Below, one piece after another: positions 8,071 to 58,273 of a stretch of DNA of 64,000 nucleotides. Below the pieces are notes generated by a model that was not told the DNA's origin, did no database searches, and saw only the letters and a program-made list of their open reading frames with translations. Source of the stretch: Candidatus Mycoplasma haematominutum 'Birmingham 1' (GTDB lineage: Bacteria; Bacillota_I; Bacilli_A; Mycoplasmatales; Mycoplasmoidaceae); NCBI RefSeq assembly GCF_000319365.1, contig NC_021007.1:310001-374000 (forward strand), read 5' to 3'. Each line of letters begins with the position of its first letter. Position 1 is the stretch's first letter. The translations under genes were made by a program, and so were the position numbers.

Positions 8071-9117
8071 TTATATTTGATTCATTCAACTTAAAAGTCT
8101 GGATGCAACTTGGAAAGTAATATCTTCTTCAGCTCTCTCTATTCTCTGTTGAAATTCTTGTGTTTGAGAAGAGGGTCAAAATTTTGCCTGTATTCCCCTT
8201 GAAAAAACCTCACTGCGTTGCTGGTACTGTTTATTTTGTTTAGCCTGCTCTACTTTGCGAATTAGGGAAGTATAAATTGACTGATTTTCCAGAAAAAGAT
8301 TAAAGGGATTAAGTTCTCACTTTTTTCAATCAGGGAGAGCGGGGGAGCTGGCCCCTCATCTACGTTTCCTGACTGTAGGCTGGGTATATTTAATTTTTGA
8401 ACCCGTCATTCAATTTATCTCCCTAAGTTTTCGCTCAATTTCAACACTTTTCGGCTTAACTTTCTGAGCTGCAGCTACTCCAGCTAAATTACTATCTATC
8501 TCTGCCAATTGAGGGATAAGTATGCTTTGTTTGCCCTCTAACTTCTCAAATTCTTTAAACATCTCTAGGAGCGCTGTACGTTCATCTCTTGTTAGAGAAA
8601 GGAAACTATTATGTGCAGCTGCTCTTTTTCGTCTACTTGATTTAGACTGCATTTGCAATCACCTGTCAAACTTAGTCTTTCCTGTCTGATAGTTAGGTAG
8701 GTGTTTCTGAACTTTAGAAAGAGATTCCCTTACCTTAACTTTTCCCTTCTCCCTTAGAGTTAATGTCTTCTCCTCCTTTTCAGCTTCCATATAAATGTCT
8801 TGAATGTTCAAGTCTTTAAATTTGTGATCTATATCTTTTTCATCAGTGAAATTTACAGCGCCGTTAATGCTGTCCAAGCTTGAAGGGCTCTGTTTTTCCT
8901 TAAGCTCTATTTTTATGCTCTGAACTTTATCTCCTGAATCTAAAGTATTCCGGTTGAGGGGATAGTCCGAAGTAGTTAAGCTGGAGCCCCCCCCCAAGGG
9001 ACTAAACAGTTTACCTAAATCAAGAAAATTTAGCTCTGAAACAGCCAAAGAAGCCCCTGAAGGGGCTCCTAATAATAGAGATAGTGCTCCAATCAATTTA
9101 GTCCTAGCATGACTCAA
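8071..9117 (-). CDS. Phase-variable family B surface protein, ON (G9)
   Basis: 348 aa. Leader KLIGALSLLLGAPSGASLA, nearly identical in type to the gene at 5908. Tract 8987-8995 in frame (LGGGSSL). RRKR at residues 162-165 precedes AAA and the helix LTRDERTALLEMFKEFEKLEGK. NPFNLFLENQSIY and a VASRLLSWMNQI tail follow. TGA encodes Trp at 8659, 8410 and near the tail. Confidence 0.87.
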
Positions 9118-43094: not shown

Positions 43095-44156
43095 GTTGCA
43101 GAGATTGACCCATTCAGTCTAGTAATTTAAAAGCTACATTGGCTGAAAAGTCTGATTTGGCTTCCTCCAACTTTCGCTGCTCTTCCCTAACTGAACTAGG
43201 AGGATAAACATATGATCTAGCTCCTGAAGTGAAAAATCCTCTTCGCTGTTGAACTTGCAAATTTGACTTAATCTGCTGAATTTTAGAGATTAAGGAATTG
43301 TAATCCTGCTGATTTTCTAGAAAGAGACTGTAGGGATTATGCGTTCACTCTTTTCAATCCGTCCAACTAATCTGGGGAGTTGCAGCTCTCCCTAATCTCT
43401 GTCTAGGTCTAGGGTTTTCATACTTAATTTCTCTCTGATTAGTTCAGTTAATAGCTTTCAGCTTAGTCTCTACATTAGATTGTTGAGGTCTATCATTTTT
43501 CAGGGTGGAAAAAGTTGATTCGGTTTTCGCTATCTGCTGAAATTTAGGTACTAACTTTTCTCTAGCTTTCTCTAACTCTTCAAAGAGTTTATAGAGTTCT
43601 CAGATAGCTGTGCGCTCTCCTTGAGTTAAAGCTGTAACAGAAGAGGAGGAAACGCTCCTTCTGTTTCTACGAGTCTTACCCTTCTTGGCTCTAGTTCATG
43701 CATCTACCTTAGCTTTAGCTGATAGATAATTAGATATCCAACTGCGACTCCGCTCAGTAAATTTTTTAACTTCAGCTTGACTCTCTACATCTAATTGAAT
43801 AGCTGAATTTTCAGTATCAGCTTCAGTATAAATATTGGAAATAGTAACTCCTTCTTGAGCAGAACCTATTTTTTCCTGACTAGATAAATTTATTGCACTA
43901 GTTTGAAGATCCCTAATTTCTGGATTTTCAATTTCATTAGCTTTAGTGAGTTTTACCTCCTTGCTAGGCTTTTTAAATGCTAACTCTTTCGATTCAAACT
44001 CATAGTGTTTATCCACTAGCTTAGAGCCCCCCCCGAAGAGGTAAAAAGATTGTCTAGTGAAAGTCTCCCTAGATCCAGAGAAGAGAGAGAAACTCCAGAA
44101 CTGGTTAATCCGAGGAGTATAGTTAGAGCCCCCAATCTCTTGCCCGCAAGGGACAA
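43084..44156 (-). CDS. Phase-variable family B surface protein, OFF (G8)
   Basis: TTG start. Leader begins LSLAGKRLGALTILLGLTSSG; tract 44027-44034; TAG three codons on, 9 G gives 357 aa. The body has RRNRRS, LTQGERTAIWELYKLFEELEKA, HNPYSLFLENQQDY and exactly the same last residues (WMGQSLQLAQ) as the gene downstream. Confidence 0.78.
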
Positions 44157-45503: not shown

Positions 45504-46572
45504 TTATCTATAACTTTTATTTTGACCCATTCAATTTAATAATTGGAGAGCTACCCTAGAAGTTACCTCCTCCCTTGCCGTTTCTAACCTCTGAGCTATT
45601 AATCTATCTTGAGCAGTAGGATTATATGCTGTCTGATATATTCCCCTGCGGACCATACCGTTTCTCTTCTGTTGGTGATGTTGTGCTTCTAAATCCTTAA
45701 TCTTCCGTTTTAACTGCTTATAGTCGGTTTCTTCCATAAAAGATTTAAAGGGGTTATTAGTTCAGAGCTCTCAGGAAAGGTGGGTGGGAGTTGAAGCTGA
45801 ACGTCCTAACTTGGCTCTGGGAGCTGGATTCTCCCACTTCACTTTAGATTGGGTGGTTCACTGAATCTTAGCTAAAGCAGACTGTAATGTAGACTGAGTA
45901 GGGCGATCTTTAGTAGCTTCAGTAATAGTTAAAGAATTATCTATTTCATTAAATTTAGGAATTAACTTTTTACGCTCTCGTTCTATCTCTTCAAAAAGTT
46001 TGTACATCTCTCAAATAGCTTCTCTTTCCTTTTGAGTGAGACTAGCTACTACACTAGAGGAAGTACTTCTCTTAGATCTTCTAGCACTTCCTGCAGCTGA
46101 GCTGACAAAAGACTCCAATTTAGACTTAGCGGACTGGTAATCTTCTATTCACTTTTTACTCTGTTCTGTAATTTTTAATACCTCTACTTGACTCTCTTGT
46201 TCTAGGTTTAGTGTATTTCCCTCTTTAGTATTCTCAGTATAAATAGTCTTAATAGTATTGCCTTGGTCTGCTTCATTCACCTTCTCTTGATTAGTTAGAT
46301 CAATCGACTCTTCCTTAAAGTTGTCTAGTTGGATAGCTGAATGTTGTTGACTTTCTCTTACCTTTAACTCTTTAGCTTTCTCATCTAGGTTAAGACTTTG
46401 GGTTTCTACCTCTATATTTGATTCCTTTAAACTGGAGAATGCCCCCCCCCCCCGAAGTGTTAAAAAGATGATCTAGTGAAAAACTATTTATATCTAAAGT
46501 TGATAGTGCTGTACTAGTAGGGGCTCCTAGAAGTAATAGTGCTGCAATAGCCCTAGTTTTTGAGACTTTCAG
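45504..46572 (-). CDS. Phase-variable family B surface protein, OFF (G12)
   Basis: Topmost gene of the array. No ATG, GTG or TTG in the leader frame after the last upstream stop; CTG at 46572 is the best candidate. Leader RAIAALLLLGAPTSTALST; tract 46442-46453 of 12 G; 11 G would give AFSSLKESNIEVE and 355 aa. The body has RRSKRS, LTQKEREAIWEMYKLFEEIERE, NNPFKSFMEETDY, YQTAYNPTAQDRLIAQ and tail SRVALQLLNWMGQ. Confidence 0.75.
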
Positions 46573-46970
46573 AAAGCTGAGGGTTTAGGGAGTACGCACA
46601 CTACATGTGGGCTCTACTTTGTCCGCTAGGGACAAAGAAAAAAGCTAACCCTATCTAGTTAGGTATTGTAAGTGTCTTGTTTTTCTCAGCTTAAAAGAGG
46701 GGGATCAATCTTCCAAATTTTTTCTATAAATACGAAAAGGATGTCGACTAAACCGACTGAAAGTACTTTGGTTACTAAACAGCTCCTTTTCAATTAAGAG
46801 TGTAATGAATACATATAACAAGTCAACTAGAGAGGCATTAAGCTAGGCCGTTTTAAGGAAGATTTATATTAATCCAAAGGAGAAAATAACCAACCTTAAA
46901 AGGCTGAAATTCAACCTTGCTGACCGGTCAGCAAGGAGGAAGTAAAGCTCCCCCTAAATGACTAGATAAG
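46573..46970. other. Non-coding junction between the array and the accessory island
   Basis: No convincing gene on either strand. At 46618-46640 there is a short match to the leader start seen at 39755 and 44156 (TTGTCCCTAGCGGACAAAG against TTGTCCCTTGCGGGCAAGAG on the minus strand), with a stop in it, which looks like the decayed start of one more array gene. From about 46915 the sequence becomes the structured leader of the plus-strand gene at 46971. Confidence 0.5.
46915..46936. repeat. Perfect 22-bp palindrome before the first MKGQSG gene
   Basis: CCTTGCTGACC followed by GGTCAGCAAGG. Transcribed, it forms a hairpin whose 3' arm runs into AAGGAGG. The same palindrome, longer, stands before the inverted copy (49782-49813); before the second copy only one arm remains (about 47850-47861). 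Confidence 0.9.
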
Positions 46971-47489
46971 ATGAAAGGACAATCGGGAGTTTTGGTTACT
47001 TTTAGCACTGAAGATAGGGAAAATAATAATGACAACATCTGTAGTGGAGTTAAGAAAGAGTTAGAGGAGAGTGAGAGTGATCAGAGCTTAAATTTTGAAA
47101 ATAGTTCATTTTTAGAGGAGTTTAAGGGTGGAGAACTTTGTGGAGAAGATAAGAAGGATGATTGGAAAAATCAAGATAGGGATAAAAAGGAAGTTTACTT
47201 TGGAATCTATTTTGAAGGTGGAAGAAGCGCAGGAAGTTGTGGCGCCCTAAAAGATCGTGACCGGGTTGTTATCTATGTTGAAAATAGTAGTAGGAATAAA
47301 TACACAGGTGCTGGCTTCAGTAACTGGAATGAGGGAGGAGAGTGTGGTGTAGAAGGAAATGCTGGAGATAGTAATTCCTTTTTGGTTGGGAGACGAGAAG
47401 ATCTAATGAATTTGTGGTTGCAAAAGGGGAAGAAAAGTTGACCTCCTGTTTTTTCTGCATTTTCTAAAAAGCCAACTAAGATTGTTTAA
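46971..47489 (+). CDS. MKGQSG-family protein, copy 1
   Basis: 172 aa when TGA at 47439 is read as Trp (ends KSWPPVFSAFSKKPTKIV). No leader or membrane helix; acidic, with Cys in DNICSGV, GELCGED, AGSCGAL and GGECGVE. A conserved core EVYFGIYFEGG...DRVVIYVE and end GRREDLMNLWLQ recur in the copies at 47889 and 49285. Function unknown. A four-codon uORF (Met-Thr-Arg-stop) ends one nucleotide before the ATG. Confidence 0.75.
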
Positions 47490-47512
47490 TTTAATAGTGT
47501 TGAAAAATAAGC

Positions 47513-47725
47513 GTGAAAATACTATTCAAGTTTTTTCTTTTAAGTTGCTTTACCTCGTGCTTGTTTTATATTGCAGTTTCACCCTCTCAGAACTGTGGAA
47601 CGCTGCAGCACGCATTATTGAAGGGGGAGTTAAGAGGGGCTGAAGCCTTCCTAGCAAGCTATTTAGTTTCAGAGGCTTGTTTCATCAACAGCGCAGTAGG
47701 AAACATTGGGTTGAAAACATCTTAG
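47513..47725 (+). CDS. Small secreted or lipoprotein-type peptide
   Basis: 70 aa from GTG. Hydrophobic start ILFKFFLLSCFTSCLFYIA with two Cys, either a signal peptide or a weak lipobox (FTSC). The mature part has two more Cys. It lies between two MKGQSG copies on the same strand. Not recognised; could also be chance. Confidence 0.45.
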   Translation: MKILFKFFLLSCFTSCLFYIAVSPSQNCGTLQHALLKGELRGAEAFLASYLVSEACFINSAVGNIGLKTS

Positions 47726-47888
47726 CTTACTGAACTAAAACCCTAGATGCTGCTGAGCTCTCATATGGTTCGCTACCAGTGAATAATTTAAGTGAAAGCT
47801 AGGAAATTAACTATCCGGCAAACCAACGGCCGGACCGGCGGAGGGTCAGCAAGGAGGAAGTAAAGCTCCCCCTAAATGACTAGATAAG

Positions 47889-48491
47889 ATGAAGGGACAA
47901 TCAGGAGTTTTGGTTACTTACACAAGGGGGAATGAAGGTGGTAGCAACGAAAGTATTTGTAACTCGGTCGTAGAAGCTTTAGGAAAGGAAGGGGGAAAGG
48001 CTGATAATTTTCTAAGTGGGAATTCATTTTTAAAAAATGGAGAGAAGAGTACACTTTGTAATGGAAGTGGGGGTAACTCACTAAAAAAGAAAGATACAGA
48101 AGGCAATGAAATTTACCTTGGTGTCTATTTTGAGAATTCAGCAAGTAGGGGAGGTTGTGACCTTGGAAAACGCGACGAGGTCGTCGCTTATGTTTCAGAA
48201 AGAGATTCAGGAAGGTTAACGGGGAGTGGTGGTCAGATAGAAAACTGAAATGGTGCAGGTAGCTGTAGCCTAAACGGAAGTAATGGAGGTAAAAAATTTT
48301 TAAAGGGTCCTCGTGAGGAATTCATTAATTTGTGGTTGCAAAGTGGGAAGAATATTTTTTTTTTGGGGGGGGCGGCCGCTTCGACTCTCAACTCCTTTAT
48401 AAAAAGGGAGAAGCCTCTTTCTACCGAGATTTTCTGCAACCACTTTGAAATTACAGCTACCTACTTCACTTCCCTGGAAACTTTAAATTAA
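47889..48491 (+). CDS. MKGQSG-family protein, copy 2, with altered C-terminus
   Basis: 200 aa when TGA at 48246 is Trp. The first residues and the core (EIYLGVYFENS...DEVVAYVSE) match copy 1, with Cys in the same places. After EEFINLWLQSGK the relatives stop, but here a T10-G8 run (48355-48372) encodes IFFLGG and leads into about 40 unrelated residues. A change in the run would alter or end this tail. The run is followed by GCGGCCGC, unusual for this base composition. Confidence 0.7.
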
Positions 48492-48557
48492 AACTGCAAA
48501 TAATCATCAACAGGCTAGGTGATTCAACTCTCCCTTAAGTGACTTCTTCCGAAGTTA

Positions 48558-48788
48558 TTGTTTTTAAAAGCCCTAGCCGGTGCTGCAACTGCAGTAGTAC
48601 ACCTAGCCCAAAAGCTGTATGAGACAAAACAGGTTATCTCCCCTTCCTCCCCAAAAGCCCCTGCAGTCTCATCTGGAGCTCCTTCTGAGGGAAAAGCTAC
48701 TGATAATGGTAAAAACTCTGTAGATTTAAGCGATATAAAACTTGAAGAAATGGGTCCAACTCCAGATGAAGATGGACTCTCCTACTAA
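48558..48788 (+). CDS. Small membrane-anchored protein, paralogue of the next gene
   Basis: 76 aa from TTG. N-terminal hydrophobic segment ALAGAATAVVHLAQKL, a Ser/Pro-rich middle, and the C-terminal motif VDLSDIKLEEMGPTPDEDGLS shared with the next gene. It probably crosses the membrane once with an acidic C-terminus outside. Confidence 0.6.
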   Translation: MFLKALAGAATAVVHLAQKLYETKQVISPSSPKAPAVSSGAPSEGKATDNGKNSVDLSDIKLEEMGPTPDEDGLSY

Positions 48789-48844
48789 AAGTTAAAATTT
48801 CAACTACCTTTCTATAGATGATGTATTTTCTTTCTCCCAGGTGA

Positions 48845-49093
48845 ATGATTCCTAAGATACTGGGAATTACTGCCCTTGCTGGAGCTAGCTCTGCTACAGG
48901 AATATTAGCCTTAAAAGTTCAAGATCACTATAGCAATCAAGCAGATGCTAGCTCCAGTTCTTCCTCTGATTCTGCTACAAGTTCGTCATCGTCATCTTCT
49001 AGCTCCAGTTCTTCCACCCAAACTGTAGACTTATCTACAATTCAGCTGGAAGAACCCGGAGTCCCTGTAGATGAAAACAACTTAAGCTTGTAG
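48845..49093 (+). CDS. Small membrane-anchored protein with poly-Ser spacer
   Basis: 82 aa from ATG. Hydrophobic ILGITALAGASSATGILAL, then a spacer with runs of 6 and 12 Ser (codons mixed, so slippage is less likely), then VDLSTIQLEEPGVPVDENNL, matching the gene before. The shared acidic end motif on a variable spacer suggests a binding or docking peptide. Confidence 0.65.
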   Translation: MIPKILGITALAGASSATGILALKVQDHYSNQADASSSSSSDSATSSSSSSSSSSSSTQTVDLSTIQLEEPGVPVDENNLSL

Positions 49094-49110
49094 AGTAGAG
49101 TTTTACTTCT

Positions 49111-49171
49111 CTTTCTCCCCCATTTGGGGGAGAAAAGGAATATTACCTAGTTACCTAAAAACTAGTTTTTT
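49111..49171 (+). terminator. Two hairpins ending the plus-strand unit
   Basis: First a CTTTCTCCCCC...GGGGGAGAAAAG stem (49111-49137), then CTAGTT...AACTAG followed by TTTTTT (49147-49171), a good intrinsic terminator 50-80 nt after the stop at 49093. The convergent gene at 49285 ends just to the right. Confidence 0.65.
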
Positions 49172-49284
49172 AACAGCTTTTTGAGCTAAAAAACCCCCTT
49201 TTTAGCTCTTTAAATCCGCTTTTTTAAACGTAGTAAGTTACGGTTCCTTTTGTTGGCCATCTTTGATGCATATTTAAGATAGGT

Positions 49285-49752
49285 CTATTTCTTCCCACTT
49301 TGCAACCACAAATTCATTAGATCTTCTCGTCTCCCAACCAATAAGGAATAATCTTCTCGTGCAGGTTTTTCTACTCCACATCCCCCGCTGTCTTTCCACT
49401 CATGGAAGCCAGCACTTGTGTATTTATTCTTATCACTCTCTTTAACATAGATAACAACCATGTCTCGTTTTATTAGATCACCACAACGTCCAGCACTATT
49501 CCTATCTCTGAAATAGATTCCAAAGTAAATTTCTTGTCCTACTCCTTCTTGATCATTTCTTTCAACTTCCTCGTCGTTATTACAAAAGTCCCCAGCTCTA
49601 ATTTTTCCTAAAAGTAAATCATCTTCAAATTTCCGGTCCTGATCAGTTCCATTCTGTCTCAATTCATTCTCAACTCCCTTACAGATTTTGTCATTTTCAA
49701 GTTCTCTACCCTCATCGTTAAAAGTAACCAAAACTCCCGATTGTCCTTTCAT
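49285..49752 (-). CDS. MKGQSG-family protein, copy 3, inverted
   Basis: 155 aa with a real TAG after WLQSGKK. Same Cys positions (DKICKGV, GDFCNND, AGRCGDL, GGCGVE) and core (EIYFGIYFRDR...DMVVIYVKE) as copy 1. Its first codons and about 50 nt of leader are nearly identical to copy 1 in opposite orientation, making a pair of inverted repeats about 2.8 kb apart. Confidence 0.75.
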   Translation of the reverse strand: MKGQSGVLVTFNDEGRELENDKICKGVENELRQNGTDQDRKFEDDLLLGKIRAGDFCNNDEEVERNDQEGVGQEIYFGIYFRDRNSAGRCGDLIKRDMVVIYVKESDKNKYTSAGFHEWKDSGGCGVEKPAREDYSLLVGRREDLMNLWLQSGKK

Positions 49753-49781
49753 CTTATCTAGTCATTTAGGGGGAGCTTTAC

Positions 49782-49813
49782 TACCTCCTTGCTGACCGGT
49801 CAGCAAGGAGGTA
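49782..49813. repeat. Perfect 32-bp palindrome before inverted copy 3
   Basis: Centred on ACCGGT, arms TACCTCCTTGCTGACC and its complement. Longer version of the palindrome at 46915-46936. Confidence 0.92.
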
Positions 49814-49819
49814 AGAACC

Positions 49820-49863
49820 CCGAGGCTTGTGACTGCAAGGGCACCGACAGTCACCAAGCTCGG
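49820..49863. other. Strong imperfect hairpin of unknown role
   Basis: CCGAGGCTTGTGACTG pairs with CAGTCACCAAGCTCGG around a 12-nt loop. It is much richer in GC than its surroundings and sits between the palindrome and the end of the minus-strand unit. It may be a terminator for the pyk-rpoBC unit, a regulatory RNA, or a recombination site. Confidence 0.5.
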
Positions 49864-49931
49864 CACAGTACTAGGGAGGGCTTACACTACGATATATCGA
49901 TTTCTAGACTTTATTTCATCAATCCCCAAAA

Positions 49932-50296: not shown

Positions 50297-58273
<7,977 letters not shown>

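Follow-up and report, generated by a model that had tools for sequence, protein, structure and literature searches.

The 64,000-nucleotide stretch analysed here (the window) covers bases 310001-374000 of the one-contig, 513,880-bp genome of 'Candidatus Mycoplasma haemominutum' Birmingham 1, a blood parasite of cats (hemoplasma). TGA encodes tryptophan in this organism, and several genes, rpoB-rpoC among them, are open only under translation table 4. A family whose only members in the genome are three copies, described in Table 1, is flanked by arrays of paralogues to its left and by the rpoB-rpoC gene to its right. Copies 1 and 2 run rightward (+) and copy 3 leftward (-), which places them in a convergent, tail-to-tail arrangement.

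Table 1. Features of the three-copy locus (positions are those of the window).
Feature	Position	Strand	Description
Perfect 22-bp palindrome, CCTTGCTGACCGGTCAGCAAGG	46915..46936	.	5' boundary of copy 1
Copy 1	46917..47489	+	Headless cassette without membrane anchor; open under table 4
Constant 5' block, copy 1	46926..47001	+	76 nt
Constant 3' block, copy 1	47382..47435	+	First 43 nt identical to copy 3
Copy 2	47844..48491	+	Headless cassette; homology sets in precisely at the palindrome centre (47844)
Constant 5' block, copy 2	47844..47919	+	97% identical to copy 1
Small anchored protein	48519..48788	+	Lies between the opposed copies, with an uncertain start codon; ends VDLSDIKLEE... / VDLSTIQLEE..., like its neighbour
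Ser-rich small anchored protein	48818..49093	+	Apparent paralogue of the 48519..48788 protein, also within the segment
Hairpin, TTTCTCCCCCATTTGGGGGAGAAA	49112..49135	.	Probable terminator between the opposed transcription units
Copy 3	49285..49866	-	Full-length gene, GTG start at 49866, 193 aa, MPSLVTVGALAVTSLGVLTSLLTGQQGG...; proposed expression copy
Constant 5' block, copy 3	49722..49797	-	76-nt block, 96% identical to copy 2
Perfect 32-bp palindrome, TACCTCCTTGCTGACCGGTCAGCAAGGAGGTA	49782..49813	.	Within the copy 3 coding sequence
Anchor-coding stretch	49814..49866	-	Copy 3 only; itself quasi-palindromic

Copy 3 alone begins with a start codon, has a hydrophobic anchor at its N-terminus and ends with a stop at the conserved position (GKK-stop); from its GTG the frame reads MPSLVTVGALAVTSLGVLTS and then LLTGQQGGSKAPPKWLDKMKGQSG. 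Copies 1 and 2 enter the common frame at the palindrome or close to it, carry neither anchor nor conserved stop, and run into unrelated tails: the homology of copy 1 to copy 3 stops short of the stop codon, and copy 2 enters a T10-G8 tract after LWLQSGKN. Upstream of the MKGQSG motif, the only possible start in copy 1 is a TTG inside the palindrome, and copy 2 has none. An earlier note on this DNA had described the leaders, starts and ends of copies 1 and 3 as almost identical. Their near-identity holds, with exact common runs of 64 nt on the 5' side and 43 nt on the 3' side, but the supposed leader is coding: with TGA read as tryptophan, a code that the note did not apply, it forms an open frame (LLTGQQGGSKAPPKWLDK), and the MKGQSG methionine is internal (residue 39 of copy 3) rather than the start of that gene. 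Of randomly chosen positions in the window, 0.46% have an upstream stretch of 30 codons that is open, bears a start and is equally hydrophobic; among Markov sequences, 0.8% do. Besides the palindrome arm itself, the 5' region of copy 3 has no second copy in the genome.

Further irregularities surround the copies. Within the anchor-coding stretch, positions 49821-49865 form a long imperfect inverted repeat stacked against the 32-bp palindrome. The T10-G8 tract (48350-48379) comes immediately behind the conserved end of copy 2 and is succeeded by CGGCCGC, a possible fusion with the remnant of another gene. Positions 48432-48475 resemble parts of the 3' region of copy 2 in inverted orientation (48247-48267 and 48330-48350) and are perhaps the remnant of a fourth copy.

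Palindromes and constant ends

The perfect palindromes beside copies 1 and 3, already reported in the earlier note, stand out from the surrounding sequence to different degrees. That of copy 3 is the longest zero-loop palindrome of the window, with an arm of 16 bp against a longest arm of 11 bp in 100 Markov-1 sequences matched to the window in length; the length of the 22-bp palindrome is reached in 3 of these 100. Their core, TTGCTGACCGGTCAGCAA, has just these two sites in the whole 513,880-bp genome, even with up to three mismatches allowed, and copy 2 has no palindrome. The right arm belongs to the constant block in all three copies, and copies 1 and 3 mirror it in left arms of 11 and 16 nt, respectively. 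The right arms differ at a single base, position 15 from the centre, where both arms carry A in copy 1 (A/A) and T in copy 3 (T/T). This matching of arms within each copy hints at arm-to-arm correction or selection for symmetry, a hint and not proof because it involves one site only. We also considered the palindromes as intrinsic terminators and rejected this, as neither is followed by a run of T in the reading direction of its gene. G-quadruplex motifs do not occur in the copies.

The inverted orientation of copies 1 and 3, also noted earlier, is borne out by arms at 46915-47435 and 49288-49808, which span 521 nt and are 76% complementary. Divergence is unevenly distributed along the copies. 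The synonymous distance (dS) lies at 0.06-0.20 over the first 25 codons and at 0.58-1.24 in the middles; over their last 18 codons, copies 1 and 3 have a dS of 0. The middles are diverged yet open, with dN/dS of about 0.6-0.7; the proteins of copies 1 and 2 are 38-54% identical to that of copy 3, and the middles of copies 2 and 3 share less than 50% nucleotide identity in places. Neither copy 1 nor copy 2 contains a single stop over about 170 codons, which is unlikely under neutral drift (P = 0.04 and 0.004, calculated at half the observed distance). Coding-strand GC skew is strong in this family and in the M. suis family described below (0.45-0.54 and 0.59-0.69, respectively), compared with a mean of 0.13 and a maximum of 0.33 for the other genes of the window.

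The copy proteins have no significant match in Pfam or NCBIfam, and the searches made link them neither to VlsE nor to another known antigen. Relatives of the family were found neither in 94 other genomes of the taxonomic family nor in the genome_contigs and viral_contigs collections. The AlphaFold model of copy 3, built from a three-row alignment, has a mean pLDDT of 34 and is unusable.

A parallel beside rpoC in M. suis

The stretch that follows rpoC differs among most of the hemoplasmas examined. In M. suis Illinois (742,431 bp), it holds ten copies of an unrelated family directly after rpoC, four on the + and six on the - strand, in convergent arrangement. A GCTGC-loop-GCAGC stem marks the 5' boundary of the constant block in nine of the ten copies, with CAC, GTG, GTT, TTA or GCTGAG as the loop. 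The stem is longest (15 bp) in the rpoC-proximal copy, and one copy keeps its stem with an in-frame stop in the loop. Indels in the M. suis leader are multiples of three, so this leader, too, behaves as coding. The stem shows weak covariation: both partners differ in three of its pairs, and a score this high is also obtained in 25 of 500 shuffles.

Two pieces of the rpoC-proximal copy, of 572 and 403 bp and reaching from the stem to the 3' end, are 96.5-96.8% identical to an opposed + copy, the other opposed pairs being mostly 66-84% identical. This is our best evidence for a recent movement of sequence between opposed copies, bounded at the stem. Relative to the matching + copy, about 265 bp are missing from the middle of the rpoC-proximal copy, and a recent inverted duplication followed by an internal deletion would give much the same trace. 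Being internally deleted, frameshifted and devoid of a clear ATG or GTG start, this copy makes a weak "expression" copy. As judged from these sequences, M. suis suggests a second, independent instance of a shared plan. A perfect 24-bp palindrome (TAGTCGTTGCAATTGCAACGACTA) lies between the two convergent M. suis arrays (positions 9034-9057 of the M. suis sequence examined).

A candidate cassette locus

Taken together, the locus looks like a small set of spare parts for varying a protein by recombination. The reading we prefer, at a probability of roughly 0.47, is a small cassette locus that would vary one membrane-anchored protein by RecA/RuvAB-type exchange between one expression copy and two opposed donors. 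Copy 3, nearest to rpoC and the sole copy with start, anchor and stop, would be the expression copy; copies 1 and 2, in opposite orientation and devoid of these elements, would serve as donor cassettes. The constant 5' block, including the palindrome, and the constant 3' block would provide the homology arms, between which general recombination by RecA and RuvAB could transfer donor middles into copy 3 by gene conversion. Alternatively, a crossover in the 5' block would invert the segment and place copy 1 or copy 2 behind the anchor; for copy 1, the predicted inversion spans about 2.8 kb and joins it to the membrane anchor of copy 3. A hairpin extruded by the palindrome might initiate the exchange or set its limits.

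Recombination between the copies, as the earlier note had proposed, agrees well with the constant ends, the variable middles and the headless copies facing a full-length one, but a dedicated invertible segment lacks support. The genome has no match to Phage_integrase, Resolvase or DEDD_Tnp_IS110, the three families searched for tyrosine, serine and IS110/Piv-type recombinases, which matched in 14, 10 and 4 control genomes, respectively. Given this result and the presence of RecA and RuvB, general recombination is the parsimonious route of exchange. We accordingly favour a cassette locus over a programmed invertible segment and regard inversion as one possible crossover outcome; gene conversion fits the layout at least as well. 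The data come from a single isolate with one assembled orientation.

Several observations weigh against a cassette locus. Two donors are few for antigenic variation, copy 2 lacks the palindrome, and selection acting on the protein, the DNA or the RNA, instead of exchange, could maintain the constant ends. Moreover, because the middles of copies 2 and 3 fall below 50% identity in places, segmental exchange within the middle is unlikely and whole cassettes would have to be exchanged.

The alternative that survives best, possible but less probable, holds that copy 3 is an ordinary gene and that copies 1 and 2 are 5'-truncated paralogues from an inverted duplication, slowly decaying and taking no part in switching, with the palindromes as scars of hairpin template switching at the duplication. 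Hemoplasma genomes are indeed rich in paralogues, which they reshuffle (PMC3958358), the extra copies here are just two, and each palindrome mirrors the right arm of its own copy, as template switching would leave it. Slow decay is harder to reconcile with the stop-free frames that copies 1 and 2 maintain despite their divergence, with ends whose synonymous divergence lies far below that of the middles, and with the recurrence of the same plan in the unrelated M. suis family.

Improbable, in our view, is an RNA element: each transcript would carry a 5' hairpin that controls its translation or stability, and all copies would be expressed, copies 1 and 2 yielding cytoplasmic proteins from the MKGQSG start. 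Such an element would account for the strong RNA stem predicted in copy 3 (z -3.3) and for the invariant 5-bp core of the M. suis stems, whose loops differ. It conflicts with a leader that is in frame upstream of the ATG and, in M. suis, changes length only in frame-preserving steps, and with copy 2, which has no stem; covariation is weak, and no Rfam family reached or neared its gathering score.

The least probable reading is programmed site-specific inversion at the palindromes, as in vsa, vpma or mba, whereby about 2.9 kb would flip and change which body carries the anchor: it would explain why the two identical 22-bp palindromic cores form an inverted pair and have no further site in the genome, and copy 1 would gain an anchor, but the three recombinase families were not found, Phage_integrase is also missing from six other genomes of the genus though present in several mollicute relatives, and the short identical inverted sites typical of such systems are found at copies 1 and 3 and not at copy 2.

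Comparison with known switching systems

The closest analogue of the preferred cassette arrangement is the vls locus of Borrelia, the agent of Lyme disease, by analogy and not by homology. Its single expression copy is accompanied by headless silent cassettes that run in the opposite direction, with inverted repeats or palindromes at the 5' end and a strong coding-strand GC skew; in B. mayonii, the palindrome is perfect and 122 bp long (PMC11499132). Switching at vls requires RuvAB but not recA (PMC2779866). Like vls, the locus described here has one copy, predicted to be expressed, with 5' elements that are missing from opposed donors, a palindrome near the 5' end of this proposed expression copy, and a G-rich coding strand. 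Unlike vls, it is arranged tail-to-tail rather than head-to-head, offers two donors instead of a long contiguous array, and is chromosomal, next to rpoC. Its palindromes lie at cassette starts, its donors are far more diverged from the expression copy, its protein is unrelated, and its variation is a prediction from the sequence of one isolate.

In the vsa surface genes of M. pulmonis, one 5' end is joined to alternative bodies by DNA inversion, and inversion of the vsa/mba type is carried out by a tyrosine recombinase. The mba/UU172 genes of Ureaplasma, whose UU172 element acts by site-specific inversion, share with the present locus the theme of mollicute surface genes whose 5' end can acquire different bodies through inversion (PMC3047005). 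Inversion is hypothetical here, however, and in contrast to mba and vsa, none of the three searched recombinase families is present. 

The MgPar donors of M. genitalium mgpB/mgpC are partial copies that are scattered. The exchange proposed here would resemble MgPar in being homologous, in drawing on partial copies and in taking place in a minimal genome; unlike MgPar, the donors lie beside their target and are associated with palindromes. Variation of mgpC itself has been described (PMC2169797).

Hemoplasmas persist in blood and are not culturable. Antigenic variation has been proposed for them from their paralogues, which three accounts leave as speculation without a mechanism (PMC3196708, PMC3091866, PMC4423628). 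The locus offers a concrete, PCR-testable candidate switch in a 514-kb genome, with a plan near that of Borrelia vls in form and without the recombinase families used by other mollicutes. A broader proposition, which we consider doubtful, is that hemoplasmas share an undescribed type of palindrome-marked cassette locus beside rpoC, which two or more species would have reached with unrelated proteins and at which a hairpin formed by the DNA where a cassette begins would initiate or bound RecA/RuvAB exchange between opposed copies.

Two features of the flanking regions deserve mention in their own right. On the right, rpoB and rpoC form one fused open frame (50297-58273, - strand, 2658 codons under table 4), and the same fusion occurs in four other hemoplasma genomes (2644-2657 codons). 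On the left, a long paralogue array (4599-46450, - strand) carries poly-C/G tracts close to where the signal joins the body, for example at 46446-46453 and 44027-44034; some tracts put the signal out of frame, making the array a candidate for slipped-strand phase variation.
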